DNA from: Candidatus Mediterraneibacter avicola
Lineage (GTDB): Bacteria; Bacillota; Clostridia; Lachnospirales; Lachnospiraceae
Reading direction: 5' to 3'
Assembly: GCA_019115385.1 (NCBI GenBank)
Contig: DXDR01000014.1
Location: forward strand, 62,001 to 126,000
Length of the DNA: 64,000 nt
Shown: piece after piece, positions 17,899-24,914 of the stretch
Layout of the letters: every line of letters begins with the position of its first letter
Numbering within the stretch: position 1 is the stretch's first letter
Position numbers and translations under genes: made by a program
Notes under the pieces: generated by a model
What the model was told of the DNA's origin: nothing
Databases searched by the model: none
The model's input: the letters and a program-made list of their open reading frames with translations, nothing else

Positions 17899-18282
17899 TC
17901 AGTCCTCTTTGACAGCGGCGATCGTCTCTACCTCGCAGAGAACGCCTTTCGGAAGCGCCTTTACAGCCACGCAGGAGCGGGCCGGCTTTCCGGTAAAGTA
18001 TTTTGCATAAATTTCATTAAATGCTGCAAAATCTCCCATATCTGCAAGGAAGCAGGTTGTCTTTACCACGTCTGTGAAGGAGGCACCCTGGCTTTCCAAA
18101 AGTGCCTTTACATTCTGCATTACCTGCTCTGTCTGCTCTTCGATGGTAGTTCCTACAACTTCTCCTGTTTCCGGTGAGAGAGGAATCTGTCCGGAAAAGA
18201 ACGCGATGCCGTTCAGGATGATTCCCTGAGAATAAGGGCCGATAGCTGCGGGTGCGTTTTTTGTATCTACATATTTTAACAT
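17899..18282 (-). CDS. RidA family enamine/imine deaminase
   Basis: [26 protein letters not shown]...[12 protein letters not shown]. Confidence 0.93.
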
Positions 18283-18357: not shown

Positions 18358-19551
18358 TTATTTAAAGATCCTCGGTGTTGATCTTTCTTCCAGTTTTTTC
18401 AGGATGTCAGCCGGATCGGCGAATTTTGCAAGGAAGATCATAGCTGCGATAATATACGGCTTGTAGCTTGCCTCTTTGTAAAGCGGATCTCTGTAGCGGT
18501 CAAATACACTTGCGTCAACTTCGCCTTCTTCGCAGCTTACGCCTGTGATGTCGGCCGGCAGACAGTGCAGATACAGAGCTTTTCCGTCTTTTGTTGTTTT
18601 CATCAGTTCTTCTGTGCATGCCCAGTCCTTGTGCTGTGCATTCTGAGCCAGCAGCTCTTTCTCCAGTTCCTTGATTCCCTCGAAGTCACCGTTTCCGTAC
18701 AGTTCCGTACGTTTTTCCATAGCTGCGAAAGGAGCCCAGCTCTTCGGATATACGATATCTGCGTCCTTAAACGCCTCTTCCATGCTGTTTGTCTTTGTGA
18801 AGGAGCCGCCGGATTTCTTTGCATTTTCAGCAGCGACAGCCTCAACCTCCGGGAATACCTCGTATCCTTCGGGATGAGCCAGGACAACGTCCATTCCGAA
18901 ACGTGTCATCAGGCCGATCACACCCTGGGGAACAGAGAGCGGCTTTCCGTAGGACGGAGAGTAAGCCCAGGACATTGCAATCTTCTTTCCTTTGAGATTT
19001 TCAACTCCTCCGAACTCGTGGATAATGTGGAGCATATCCGCCATTGCCTGTGTCGGGTGGTCAATATCGCACTGCAGGTTTACAAGAGTCGGTTTCTGCT
19101 CCAGGATCCCGTCTTTATTTCCCTGGGTTACCGCGTCAACAACTTCGTGCATGTAAGCATTTCCCTTTCCGATGTACATATCGTCGCGGATGCCGATGAC
19201 GTCAGCCATAAAGGAAATCATGTTTGCCGTCTCCCGGACCGTCTCGCCGTGTGCCACCTGGGATTTGCCCTCGTCCAGATCCTGCACCTCAAGGCCTAAC
19301 AGATTGCAGGCAGACGCAAATGAGAAACGGGTACGTGTAGAGTTGTCGCGGAAAAGAGAAATACCCAGGCCGCTTTCAAATACCTTTGTGGAAATGTTGT
19401 TCTCTCTCATGTAGCGCAGTGCGTCTGCAACAGTAAATACAGCTTCCAGCTCGTCGTCTGTCTTCTCCCATGTCAGGAAAAAGTCTCCATTGTACATCTC
19501 CTTGAAGTTCAGCTTGTTCAGCTTATCAATATAATCCTGTAATGTTTTCAT
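18358..19551 (-). CDS. ygeW: Knotted carbamoyltransferase YgeW
   Basis: Carbamoyltransferase motifs DNSTRTRFSFASACNLLG, HPTQAMADM, LYLHCLPADITGVSC; neighbours ygeX/ygeY/arcC. Confidence 0.92.
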   Translation of the reverse strand: MKTLQDYIDKLNKLNFKEMYNGDFFLTWEKTDDELEAVFTVADALRYMRENNISTKVFESGLGISLFRDNSTRTRFSFASACNLLGLEVQDLDEGKSQVAHGETVRETANMISFMADVIGIRDDMYIGKGNAYMHEVVDAVTQGNKDGILEQKPTLVNLQCDIDHPTQAMADMLHIIHEFGGVENLKGKKIAMSWAYSPSYGKPLSVPQGVIGLMTRFGMDVVLAHPEGYEVFPEVEAVAAENAKKSGGSFTKTNSMEEAFKDADIVYPKSWAPFAAMEKRTELYGNGDFEGIKELEKELLAQNAQHKDWACTEELMKTTKDGKALYLHCLPADITGVSCEEGEVDASVFDRYRDPLYKEASYKPYIIAAMIFLAKFADPADILKKLEERSTPRIFK

Positions 19552-19592
19552 GTTGTGTATCCTCCTTAATTACTGAAATTTAAAATCGATGT

Positions 19593-20903
19593 TTACTTGC
19601 AGTAGCATTCCGGCAGCGCTGCATACACAGCCGCGCATGTCACCAGATCCTGTTTCCATGTCTTTTCGTTCGGTGCGTGTGCCTGTGCTTCTGCTCCGGG
19701 CCCGAATCCGATGCACGGGATTCCGTTTCTTCCCATGATGGACACACCGTTGGTGGAGAAGGTCCACTTGTCTGTCAGCGGGCGGCTCTGGCGCATTTCC
19801 AGTGTTTCCTCAGCGCCGATCCTCTTGTCTCCGTAGAGGGAAGTATATGCTTTTTCGAGAGCCTTTGTGACCTTGTGGTCTTTCGGGATCGCCCATGTGG
19901 GGAAGTAGCACTCGATCTCATATACACATCCTGTGTAGGACGGGCGGTCATAGTTGTACATGGATACGACTACGTCGTCGCCGTATTTCTGTACGCTGGG
20001 AAGTGCGCGGATCTCGTCCAGGCAGCTCTCCCATGTTTCACCGAACGTCATGCGGCGGTCAAGAGATACCGCACAGGAGTCGGCAACCGCACAGCGGCTG
20101 GGGGATGTATAGAAGATCTGAGATACGGTTACAGTGCCCCGGCCCAGGAAACGTGCCTCCTCCCAATCCGGGTTATATTTCGGGTTCAGCATTTTTACGA
20201 GACCTTTGATCTCTGTCTCATCTGCGTCATCGTTTTCATTGAGGGCGCGTACATCCTGAAGGATATCGGCCATCTTGTAGATCGCGTTGTCGCCGCGTTC
20301 TGGAGCAGAACCATGGCAGGAAACGCCTTTTACGTCAATACGGATTTCCATACGTCCGCGCTGCCCACGGTAGATGCCTCCGTCTGTAGGCTCTGTGGAA
20401 ACAACGAATTCCGGGCGGATTTTATCTTCATTAATAATGTACTGCCAGCACAGTCCGTCGCAGTCCTCTTCCTGTACGGTTCCCACGACCATTATCTTGC
20501 ATCCCTCAGGGATCAGATCCAGATCCTTCATGATCCTGGCTCCGTAAACTGCGGATACAAGGCCTCCGCACTGATCGGATACGCCGCGGCCGCCGATTTC
20601 AGTCTCGTTTTCATAGCCTTCGTAAGGATCAAATGTCCAGTTGTCGATATTTCCAATGCCAACGGTATCGATATGTGCATCGTATGCGATGATCTTTTCA
20701 CCGGTTCCCATATAGCCGATTACATTTCCCTGAGGATCTATGATAACTTCGTCAAAATCCAGCTTCTTCATTTCAGCTGCGATCGTATCAATGTGCGCTT
20801 TTTCATCGCAGCTCTCCCCCGGGTTTCTTACAATAGCGCGCAGAAATGCGGTCATGTCCTTCTGATATCCCTGCGCAGCTTCTTTGATTTTGTTGAAATC
20901 CAT
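19593..20903 (-). CDS. ygeY: YgeY family selenium metabolism-linked hydrolase (M20-like)
   Basis: M20 motifs ([20 protein letters not shown]) and cluster context. Confidence 0.92.
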
Positions 20904-21041
20904 AATTTTTCTCTCCTTTTAATAAGTGATAAAATGATAACGACATGGTGCGGCCAGGTTTCCGGGCGGCGGAGGGAGCCGTCCCGGAATACCCTGACAC
21001 AAAAAGTTGAAAGGTTGCTTTATGGTAAGGAAACAGCCGGA

Positions 21042-22247
21042 TTATCTGTCGTTTCCGTCCCAAACAATGGATTTGTAGCGGTCCGGATCTGTGTCGCCTT
21101 CCGTGGAGAAGAGGAGGACCTTAGAGGTCTCGTCCAGTCCCAGATGTTCTCTGAGAGGGCGATATTCTTCCATAGTCATAATGCAGGCCAGCACGCCGAA
21201 AGGCGCGGCGCCGGATTCGCCGGATGTTACAGGCTGGTCTCCTTTAATGGGAGCGGCCAGCATACGCATTCCCTTTGCAGCCGCCCAGTCAGGAGCAGCG
21301 ACAAAAGTATCTACATGATTTTTCAGGATATCCCAGGAAATCGTGTTCGGTTCACCGCAGGCAAGCCCTGCCATGATCGTCTCCATATCTCCGTCAACAA
21401 TACGGATATCTCCGTCTGCAGCACAGGCTCCTTTGTACAGGCAGGCAGCGGCTTCTGCTTCTACAACGACTACCTTTGGCGGATTGTCGGGATAGCGGTT
21501 GGCAAAATATCCCTGAACAGCTCCGGCCAAGGAGCCGACTCCGGCCTGGATAAAGACATGAGTGGGGCGGTCACATCCTGCGCTGTGAAGCTGTTCGTCA
21601 GCCTCCATCGCCATTGTCCCGTATCCCTGCATGATCCAGGAAGGAATCTCTTCATATCCGTCCCATGCAGTATCCTGTACCATAACGCCGTTCTCTGTCT
21701 TTTCCGCCATCGCATTTGCCATACGGACGCATTCGTCATAGTTATATTCCTCGATCGTTGCCTGGGCGCCTTCGGCAAGAATGTTGTTCAGTCGTGTCTG
21801 CGTGCTGCCCTTTGGCATAAGAACAACTGCTTTCTGTCCAAGTTTGTTTGCAGCCCAGGCTACGCCGCGGCCGTGATTGCCGTCTGTTGCAGTAAAGAAA
21901 GTGGCCTGGCCGAATTCTTTTCGGAGTTCATCAGAAGTAAGCACGTTGTAGGGAAGCTCTGAGACATCTTTCCCCGTCTGTTTGGCTATGTAGCGTGCCA
22001 TTGCAAATGAGCCGCCCAGCACTTTAAAGGCATTCAGGCCAAAGCGATAGGACTCGTCTTTTACATAGACTTCTTTCAGGCCCAGATATTCAGCCATCTT
22101 TTCAAGTCCGGCCAGAGGCGTTACAGTGTACTGCGGGAAACTTTCGTGAAAAGCCCGTGCCTTTCTGACATTATCGAGATCCATGACCTTAAGCTGAGCA
22201 TCATCTGTTTTGGGCATCTTGTTGACAGCCCACTTTATTGTTTCCAT
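21042..22247 (-). CDS. ygeX: Diaminopropionate ammonia-lyase
   Basis: PLP fold-type II protein (DESYRFGLNAFKVLGGSFAMARY, TDGNHGRGVAWAA); neighbours. Confidence 0.93.
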   Translation of the reverse strand: METIKWAVNKMPKTDDAQLKVMDLDNVRKARAFHESFPQYTVTPLAGLEKMAEYLGLKEVYVKDESYRFGLNAFKVLGGSFAMARYIAKQTGKDVSELPYNVLTSDELRKEFGQATFFTATDGNHGRGVAWAANKLGQKAVVLMPKGSTQTRLNNILAEGAQATIEEYNYDECVRMANAMAEKTENGVMVQDTAWDGYEEIPSWIMQGYGTMAMEADEQLHSAGCDRPTHVFIQAGVGSLAGAVQGYFANRYPDNPPKVVVVEAEAAACLYKGACAADGDIRIVDGDMETIMAGLACGEPNTISWDILKNHVDTFVAAPDWAAAKGMRMLAAPIKGDQPVTSGESGAAPFGVLACIMTMEEYRPLREHLGLDETSKVLLFSTEGDTDPDRYKSIVWDGNDR

Positions 22248-22280: not shown

Positions 22281-22540
22281 TGCCGATAATCTCCCGAACA
22301 TGCGCCAGCTCGAATGCGCCGCGGTGCGGCTCCTTCTCGCTGCATGGCGACCGCCATATGCCGGTATCGTCCCTATCTGCCGTCTGCAAGCCAGCTTGCA
22401 CGGCAACTGTTGCCGATAATCTCCAGAACATGCGCCAGCTCGAATGTGCCGCCAGACGGCCCCTTCTCGCTGCATGGCGTTCGCCATATGCCGGTATCGT
22501 CCCTATCTGCCGTCTGCAAGCCAGCTTGCACGGCATATAT
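22281..22540. repeat. Two tandem ~130-bp imperfect repeats with internal hairpins
   Basis: TGCCGATAATCTCC... at 22281 and again at 22411 (period 130, roughly 90% identity by eye); each unit has ATGGCG-NN-CGCCAT and GCAAGC-CA-GCTTGC hairpins. Confidence 0.9.
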
Positions 22541-22578
22541 TGACGATACCGGGCGCATGTTCGTTCTTTTGCGCATGT

Positions 22579-23226
22579 TCATCCTTTGTCCATATAGCTG
22601 TATAATGTAAATTTTGATATTCCCAGAAGGGAAGAGACTTTATCGCCGGATTTTGTGATGAGGAATGCCCCGGCGTTGTTCAGGTACTGCACCACGGCGA
22701 CTTTGTCGTCCTTGTTCATCAAGGCTACAGGTTTTCCGACTTTCGCGATCGCCTGCTCAATGAGAAGATCAAGCAGTTCTGTTACATTGTGAGTGATTTT
22801 CTGAGGTGTGTCAGAACTGTCTGCTTCAGGATTTTCTTCCGGTGTGGTCTGAATCAGGCTGCGGATGGAATTCTCAGCCGCAAGCAGGGCAGTGATGTCA
22901 TAATTTACCGAAAATATGTAGGCGATCCTGCCTTTTTCATTGCGGATGTAAAGTGTACTGGATTTTAAGATCCTTCCATCGTCTGTTCTTGTCAGATAGG
23001 CCAGTTTATCGTTGATCTTCCCGGGATCAGACCGGAGAGTTTCAAATACGATACCCGAAGGTCCGTCGCCGGTATGACGGTTGGACACCTGCCCGTTCTC
23101 AATATACACGATAGATTTGTCCAGGTCCTTTTTCGTCAGATCGTGGATAACGACCTCACAGGAACTGCCGAACTGTACTGCAAGTCCGTGAGCGAGCTGT
23201 TTTAGAAAATCAAGCTTCTGATCCAT
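22579..23226 (-). CDS. YheO-like PAS + HTH transcriptional regulator
   Basis: N-terminal YheO/PAS-like part (FGSSCEVVIHDLTKKDLDKSIVYIENGQVSNRHTGDGPS) and C-terminal HTH (VVQYLNNAGAFLITKSGDKVSSLLGISKFTLYSYMDK). Confidence 0.85.
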   Translation of the reverse strand: MDQKLDFLKQLAHGLAVQFGSSCEVVIHDLTKKDLDKSIVYIENGQVSNRHTGDGPSGIVFETLRSDPGKINDKLAYLTRTDDGRILKSSTLYIRNEKGRIAYIFSVNYDITALLAAENSIRSLIQTTPEENPEADSSDTPQKITHNVTELLDLLIEQAIAKVGKPVALMNKDDKVAVVQYLNNAGAFLITKSGDKVSSLLGISKFTLYSYMDKG

Positions 23227-23322
23227 TGTTTCACCTGCCTTTTCCGAACTTATATATCACAGAAGAAAAACGTGTGTCTCTAAACTCATCATAGCATAAA
23301 AAAATACAGAGTCAATACTTTT

Positions 23323-23359
23323 TCTAAAACTTTTTTAGGTAATCTAAAAAATATTTAGG
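23323..23359. promoter_or_regulatory. Operator-like box pair A
   Basis: TCTAAAACTTTTTTAGG (23323-23339) and TCTAAAAAATATTTAGG (23343-23359), start-to-start 20 bp. Confidence 0.65.
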
Positions 23360-23409
23360 AATACGGATCGCGCTTGAAAATTCACAGTAAAAAAACAGAA
23401 ATATTGATT

Positions 23410-23446
23410 TCTAAAAAAAATTTAGGGGTTCTAAAAATTAGTTAGA
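23410..23446. promoter_or_regulatory. Operator-like box pair B
   Basis: TCTAAAAAAAATTTAGG (23410-23426) and TCTAAAAATTAGTTAGA (23430-23446), start-to-start 20 bp. Confidence 0.65.
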
Positions 23447-23453
23447 ATCTATG

Positions 23454-23482
23454 TTGCATTTATACAATATTAATGGTATTCT
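23454..23482 (+). promoter_or_regulatory. Putative sigma-A promoter for ssnA operon
   Basis: TTGCAT - 17 nt - TATTCT, 8 bp downstream of box pair B. Confidence 0.5.
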
Positions 23483-23579
23483 ATAAGAAGTGACAGGACT
23501 TAGTGTGCGAATTGCACAGTTATGTGCGGGGATGCACTAGGAACAGTATGTGGAAAATAAATAAAAAGGAGAAATTAAC

Positions 23580-24914
23580 ATGCTGGTTTTAGGGAATGGA
23601 AGAGTTATCACAAGAGATGCTGCATGTCCCCTGATCGAAAATGGAGCGGTGGCGATCGACGGAACTGCAATCTGCCAGGTGGGCTGCACCGAAGAAATCA
23701 GGGAGGCGTATCCGGGTGCGGAGTACATTGACGCAAAAGGCGGCCTGATCATGCCTGCTTTTATCAATGTACACGAACATATCTATAGTTCATTTGCAAG
23801 AGGGCTTTCCATAAAAGGCTATGATCCGAAAGGATTTCTCGATATCCTGGATGGTATGTGGTGGACCATTGACCGCAATCTCACGCTGCATGATACATAT
23901 TTAAGCGCTATGGCTACTTATATTGACTGTATCAGGAACGGTGTGACCACGATTTTTGACCATCACGCAAGTTTCGGCTCTGTCGGCGGTTCTCTTTTTG
24001 AGATTGAGAAAGCGGCGAAGGAAACAGGCGTGCGTTCCTGTCTCTGCTATGAGATCTCAGACAGAGACGGCATGGACAAGGCGAAAGCCTCCGTAATGGA
24101 AAATGCAGAGTTTATCCGGCATGCTTTAAAAGACGACACCGGGATGATCGCAGGAATGATGGGAATGCACGCACAGTTTACCATCTCAGATGAAACGATG
24201 GAACTGGCTGCCGCCAATAAACCGGATGAAGTTGGATATCACATTCATGTGGCGGAAGGGATCGAAGACCTGCACCACTGTCTGAAACACTATGGCAAAC
24301 GGATCGTGGACCGGTTGATGGATCACGGCATTCTTGGAGAAAAGACTCTGCTCGGACACTGTATCTACATTAATCCCCACGAGATGGATTTAATTAAGGA
24401 AACAGACACAATGGTCGTACACAATCCAGAGTCAAATATGGGGAATGCCTGTGGATGCCCTCCGACCATGGAACTGGTACACCGGGGGATCCTTACCGGC
24501 CTGGGGACGGATGGATACACCCATGACATGATGGAATCTTTCAAGGTGGCGAATGTGCTGCACAAGCATCACCTGTGTGACCCGAACGCAGCATGGGGAG
24601 AAGTGCCGCAGATGCTTTTTGAAAACAATGCAAAGATCGCGGGAAGATACTTCAGACAGGAGATGGGCGTACTGAAAGAAGGGGCGGCAGGAGATGTGAT
24701 TATTGTAGATTATAATCCTCTGACTCCACTGAATGAAAGCAACATTAACGGACATCTGGTGTTCGGCGTAACCGGCCATGATGTGGTGACGACAGTAGCC
24801 AACGGCAAAGTCCTGATGAAAGACAGAAAACTGACAGAGATTGACACGGAAAAAGTTATGGCTGACTGCAGGCAGGCGGCAAAAGAACTGGCCTACAGGA
24901 TCAACAGCCGTTAG
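23580..24914 (+). CDS. ssnA: Putative aminohydrolase SsnA
   Basis: Amidohydrolase motifs (PAFINVHEHIYSSFARGL, TTIFDHHAS, GLGTDGYTHDMMES) and cluster position. Confidence 0.92.
   Translation: MLVLGNGRVITRDAACPLIENGAVAIDGTAICQVGCTEEIREAYPGAEYIDAKGGLIMPAFINVHEHIYSSFARGLSIKGYDPKGFLDILDGMWWTIDRNLTLHDTYLSAMATYIDCIRNGVTTIFDHHASFGSVGGSLFEIEKAAKETGVRSCLCYEISDRDGMDKAKASVMENAEFIRHALKDDTGMIAGMMGMHAQFTISDETMELAAANKPDEVGYHIHVAEGIEDLHHCLKHYGKRIVDRLMDHGILGEKTLLGHCIYINPHEMDLIKETDTMVVHNPESNMGNACGCPPTMELVHRGILTGLGTDGYTHDMMESFKVANVLHKHHLCDPNAAWGEVPQMLFENNAKIAGRYFRQEMGVLKEGAAGDVIIVDYNPLTPLNESNINGHLVFGVTGHDVVTTVANGKVLMKDRKLTEIDTEKVMADCRQAAKELAYRINSR

Follow-up and report, generated by a model that had tools for sequence, protein, structure and literature searches.

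The window, the whole 64,000-nucleotide stretch of Candidatus Mediterraneibacter avicola DNA analysed here, contains the gene of a YheO-like regulator that is transcribed divergently from ssnA, with four short boxes lying between the two genes (Table 1). On the plus strand, ssnA (NCBIfam SsnA, 1.5e-202) leads an arm in the order ssnA, permease, ygfK, yqeC, yqeB, ferredoxin and selenium-dependent xdh, and on the minus strand the regulator gene is followed by ygeX, ygeY and ygeW, past which come a Rid-family gene and a carbamate kinase gene. The NCBIfam equivalog or subfamily matches to ssnA, ygfK, ygeW, ygeX, ygeY and xdh together identified the locus as a reductive urate-degradation cluster. 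A reductive uric-acid degradation cluster with these six genes has been described (PMC12507026), and the same genes flank the present boxes on both sides.

The regulator carries a PAS_6 domain (PF08348, residues 5-119, E 2e-34) at its N terminus and an HTH_22 domain (PF13309, residues 152-212, E 1.8e-20) at its C terminus. Its AlphaFold model (mean pLDDT 84) shows a PAS fold and C-terminal helices at residues 172-184, 193-201 and 205-213, and the recognition-helix segment ISK[FY]TLY was nearly invariant among 28 homologues. A PDB sequence search with the regulator gave no match, and a fold search with the model returned generic PAS/LOV folds only, without a clue to the ligand. The stretch between the regulator gene and ygeX is occupied by a REP/BIME-like inverted-repeat element, which was also seen at G000:C60:13205-13420, with short repeated units at C60:30030-30350.

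Table 1. Features of the regulator/ssnA locus (positions in the window)
Feature	Coordinates	Strand	Remarks
Rid-family gene	17899-18282
ygeX, ygeY, ygeW arm	18358-22247	minus	downstream of regulator; NCBIfam equivalogs
Inverted-repeat element	22295-22580
YheO-like regulator, PAS_6 + HTH_22, 215 aa	22579-23226	minus	Pfam domains; probable binder of the boxes
Half-site TCTAAA	23279-23284		at predicted regulator transcript start; weak, possibly no operator
Regulator promoter TTGACT-N16-TATGAT	23288-23315	minus	-35 at 23315-23310; -10 hexamer at 23293-23288
Box A1, TCTAAAACTTTTTTAGG	23323-23339		proximal to regulator promoter
Box A2, TCTAAAAAATATTTAGG	23343-23359		20 bp from A1
Spacer between pairs A and B, 50 bp	23360-23409		from comparison of intergenic regions
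Box B1, TCTAAAAAAAATTTAGG	23410-23426
Box B2, TCTAAAAATTAGTTAGA	23430-23446		proximal to ssnA promoter
ssnA promoter TTGCAT-N17-TATTCT	23454-23482	plus	7 bp from B2
Palindrome in ssnA 5' untranslated region	23504-23519
ssnA	23580-24914	plus	first gene of plus-strand arm

Boxes and promoters

An earlier note on this DNA had reported four boxes, a TCTAAA half-site, the TTGCAT-N17-TATTCT promoter and an identical start-to-start distance of 20 bp within both pairs, and all of these were found in the sequence as described. The motif, given there in the asymmetric form TCTAAA-N5-TTTAGG, is better written as the palindrome YCTAAA-N5-TTTAGR, from which B2 departs by one mismatch (two from the asymmetric form), and the gap between pair B and the -35 hexamer of ssnA, put at 8 bp, measured 7 bp. 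The regulator's own minus-strand promoter, absent from that note, has the same geometry, with 7 bp separating A1 from its -35 hexamer, mirroring pair B and the ssnA promoter.

The regulator promoter, TTGACT-16-TGCTATGAT, has an extended -10 element with TGC before the -10 hexamer, and a consensus promoter scan gave it 10 of 12 matches with the TG present. The ssnA promoter is weak, matching 4/6 positions in both hexamers, and fell under the threshold of the consensus scanner. Relative to the predicted starts, the sites are centred near -50/-70 and -51/-71, the latter pair on the ssnA side, and they lie on one helical face upstream of the -35 hexamers, overlapping neither core promoter. The activator-type position claimed earlier for pair B is a reasonable description, which in itself is no proof of activation.

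The half-site coincides with the place where the regulator transcript is predicted to begin and was conserved mainly in close relatives, and it is on these grounds that we regard it as weaker than the four boxes. Autorepression through it was considered and is a tentative reading only, given that its conservation was confined to close relatives. In the 5' untranslated region of ssnA lies another palindrome, TGTGCGAATTGCACAG, of which the window holds one exact copy; it was partly conserved in close relatives and might represent a second operator or an RNA element.

Conservation of the box geometry

Relatives of the regulator were gathered from public genomes and inspected together with their neighbour genes, and the usual setting in close relatives was a divergent ssnA on one side and ygeX-ygeY-ygeW on the other. 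Using a palindromic matrix, we obtained 150 box matches in 85 non-redundant regulator/ssnA intergenic regions versus 2.2 expected, this being the mean of first-order Markov resamples, of which the highest gave 5. As strict matches in these very regions had served to train the matrix, the excess is partly circular; the spacing played no part in that training. The spacing between neighbouring boxes was exactly 20 bp in 64 of 77 cases. A regulator promoter was found without any box constraint in nearly all relatives, and in 70 of the 73 regions the best regulator-sense promoter from this box-independent search had a box at a distance of exactly 7 bp. In the ssnA sense, 49 regions had a box 7 bp from the promoter and a further 5 had one at 6 or 8 bp; in 8 regions with a degenerate proximal box the promoter stood 27 bp from the distal one. 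Where several boxes were present, the one closest to 7 bp was taken, which biases the offset slightly toward 7; since boxes are 20 bp apart, this choice cannot produce the offset observed. The comparison with related genomes that the earlier note had proposed thus turned out in its favour, as orthologous regulators are accompanied by the boxes with the spacing of 20 bp and the offset of 7 bp preserved. Many regulators with an identity under about 60% had one degenerate box or two, which we counted against the operator reading. In remote homologues (with a divergent ygeY, or with ssnA in other lineages), the geometry was often kept and the outer bases were changed, as in TCAAA-N7-TTTGA or ATACAA...

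The usual layout is a single 37-bp pair between back-to-back promoters, found at 48 loci in the order -10/16/-35/7/box/3/box/7/-35/17/-10. Over these loci, the two boxes averaged 1.83 and 1.52 bits, versus 0.69 bits for the 3 bp between them and 0.75 bits for the flanks, both of which are poorly conserved. Two pairs, 18 to about 200 bp apart, occurred in seven non-redundant regions including the window, each promoter being adjoined by its own pair, and the 50-bp spacer of the window is missing from the single-pair layout of most relatives. The simplest reading of this comparison is that the two pairs would be a duplicated single operator with spacer DNA added between the copies. At four loci (L041, L044, L158 and L132), the inter-pair spacer contains a sequence resembling a promoter and a hairpin with T's after it, exemplified at L041 by TTGACA-17-TATATT and then AAGGCGC...GCGCCTTTTT, so that a small transcript may be made within it. 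These four spacers had no Rfam match, and an Rfam search of the region and the duplicated-pair spacers yielded nothing credible.

Occurrence of the boxes in genomes

Genome-wide work on the 2.58-Mb genome consisted of pattern searches. All three exact matches to the palindrome fell at this locus; a reversed control pattern also matched three times genome-wide, which means that single boxes are not very rare and that the cluster is. With one mismatch allowed, the palindrome was found at 15 places versus 65 for the reversed control, and lone loose boxes therefore mean little. The 37-bp pair pattern matched twice, both times here, versus no control match at up to one mismatch. Thus, the evidence rests on clustering, spacing and offset and not on single boxes.

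Next, the pair pattern was followed through related genomes; the resulting counts cover related sequences and not independent events, and co-absence may reflect loss of the whole locus. Among 58 genomes of the genus, 53 carried the pair (up to 2 mismatches), usually in one copy, and 52 carried the regulator. One genome (G167) has the regulator with a pair spaced by 19 bp; in two others a contig end cuts the regulator (G200) or the contig stops just after the pair (G185); and the four remaining pair-less genomes gave no regulator match. Regulator and pair thus co-occur in essentially all 58 genomes. Across 397 genomes of the family, the pair pattern (up to one mismatch) occurred at 12 places, 11 of them at regulator or ygeX promoters, compared with one match for the control pattern. 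Extra single boxes in genus genomes, located at the start of a carbamoyl-phosphate synthase gene, at MATE and NCS1 permease promoters and at a pyrophosphatase gene, were set aside as chance occurrences, as they have no partner at 20 bp, and a pair match near a pyrophosphatase gene in the family (G378:C24) was treated likewise.

Three genomes informed us about targets away from the usual arrangement. In G366, about 47 kb separate a ygeX-ygeY-ygeW operon from the regulator/ssnA locus, and this operon is served by a pair of its own, with boxes 7 bp and 27 bp away from the -35 hexamer. In G138, no regulator gene stands between ygeX and ssnA, a 54% identical regulator being encoded elsewhere in the genome, and a strong box is found 7 bp from the ygeX promoter and 27 bp from that of ssnA. 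In G158, the boxes before a second xdh (L167, G158:C5) lie 19 bp apart, with distances of 7 and 26 bp to the -35 hexamer, and this xdh-like gene is possibly a further regulon member. These cases speak for an element that serves the urate genes rather than being just a component of the promoter of the regulator. Across the genus the boxes go with the regulator, and where ygeX or a second xdh lies elsewhere, boxes are found there as well. At another locus, L251 (G160:C1:1164931-1165563), the palindromes of a second regulator gene are spaced by 19 bp, and the proximal one overlaps the -35 hexamer by 4 bp, about one helical turn closer than in the 7-bp placing.

Discussion

The earlier note had proposed that the adjacent YheO-like regulator binds the boxes and controls both arms jointly, and the comparison supports this proposal. 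The conservation described above makes binding by this regulator very likely. That they form the operator of this PAS_6/HTH_22 protein and serve to co-control both arms of the reductive urate cluster we also regard as likely, with good confidence, a judgement that covers operator and co-control and not the sign of regulation. Each box would be a dimer site, and two sites 20 bp, or two helical turns, apart would constitute one operator, both being turned to the same side of the DNA. Most relatives would have just one such operator for two back-to-back sigma-A promoters, and it would therefore set the regulator-ygeX-ygeY-ygeW and ssnA-permease-ygfK-...-xdh arms together; in this genome the operator would have undergone duplication, its two copies being separated by spacer DNA and the original geometry being kept at each promoter. 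The spacing and the 7-bp offset suggest that regulator dimers contact RNA polymerase at each promoter. Activation of ssnA appears somewhat more probable than its repression, and the weak ssnA promoter fits this. For the proposal that the PAS domain senses a purine-pathway metabolite, we see the chances as evenly balanced.

The same boxes and the same protein could instead bring about repression, which we consider a serious but less probable alternative. The regulator would displace the alpha C-terminal domain of RNA polymerase, or bend or close the divergent region, and a purine ligand would release it. CfiR, a YheO-like PAS_6/HTH regulator, represses cj1388 (PMC4519771), so that activation should not be taken for granted. 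With its near-consensus sequence, the regulator promoter hardly needs an activator, and the core of the proximal box, AAAAATTTTTT, lies, judging from the coordinates, about where an UP element would sit, so that repression through displacement of the alpha C-terminal domain is conceivable; the 7 bp on the regulator side are moreover A-rich and conserved. Against repression, no box overlaps a -35 or -10 hexamer at either promoter, the 4/6 matches leave the ssnA promoter weak, and strict phasing upstream of the -35 hexamer is typical of activators.

It is improbable that the boxes belong to another, co-occurring regulator while the YheO-like protein binds elsewhere or nothing. Sequence alone would allow a second protein with the same phylogenetic distribution, but regulator and pair co-occur tightly, and the element stays before the regulator gene whatever the divergent gene is (ssnA, permease or ygeY). 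Still less probable, and indeed very unlikely, is that the boxes are mere A-tract or UP-like promoter elements without a dedicated protein. The DNA directly upstream of the -35 hexamer is A/T-rich, as an UP element would be, both in the box core and in the A-rich regulator-side 7-bp gap. However, an UP element has no sequence requirement outside its A/T tracts and needs no second copy, whereas the outer CTA/TAG bases, including the outer C/G, and a copy 20 bp further upstream are conserved, and the genome has no exact copy of the palindrome outside this locus. Single boxes do arise by chance, as the three control matches in this genome show; as an explanation of the whole arrangement, fortuitous repeats in A/T-rich DNA between genes are refuted almost beyond doubt by the box excess and fixed spacing in the 85 regions and by the promoter offset.

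Divergent promoters with one common operator form a general class, for example in AraC or LysR-type systems, and an autoregulatory divergent operator is a known kind of system. As in those systems, regulator and target stand back to back with the sites between them; unlike them, the present operator is symmetric, with two palindromes placed 7 bp from both -35 hexamers, and its probable binder is a PAS_6/HTH_22 protein. DauR of Pseudomonas, a YheO-like repressor of D-arginine catabolism, belongs to the same domain family and acts in a different pathway. CfiR (Cj1387c) of Campylobacter jejuni is the only YheO-like relative found in the searched papers whose effect on a neighbouring gene is known; it resembles the present regulator in joining a YheO-like PAS domain to an HTH, in having an adjacent target gene and in its link to Rid (L-PSP) genes, one of which also lies in the present cluster, but it represses a downstream Rid gene and is not tied to urate genes in Campylobacter (PMC4519771). 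A term search of that paper gave no binding site for CfiR. A term search of PMC12507026 gave no mention of a regulator, PAS or YheO, and the E. coli promoter work in that paper deals with a Crp site located between ygeV and ygeW. Among open-licence papers, we found neither a published DNA site for a PAS_6/HTH_22 regulator nor a described regulator of the clostridial urate cluster.

Gut bacteria able to break down urate affect urate levels and gout in the host, and it is only recently that the enzymes of the reductive pathway have been elucidated. The box pair probably switches the whole anaerobic urate pathway in gut Clostridia (Lachnospiraceae). With a defined operator and a likely regulator, it becomes possible to test directly which conditions or factors induce the pathway, a simple pattern search could find regulon members, and the poorly studied PAS_6/HTH_22 family gains its first candidate DNA site. 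More tentatively, and with rather more doubt than belief, the YheO-like clade could be a dedicated urate master switch, in which the PAS domain would sense a purine intermediate and one symmetric operator would drive both arms, lineages such as the present one having later duplicated the operator, in some cases around a small transcription unit, so as to uncouple the arms.

Elsewhere in the genome, a second PAS_6/HTH_22 regulator, 59% identical to the first, is encoded divergently from a D-hydantoinase gene (L126, G000:C98:11217-11837), with degenerate boxes about 19 bp apart, and perhaps the hydantoinase step of urate degradation is under the control of this sister regulator.
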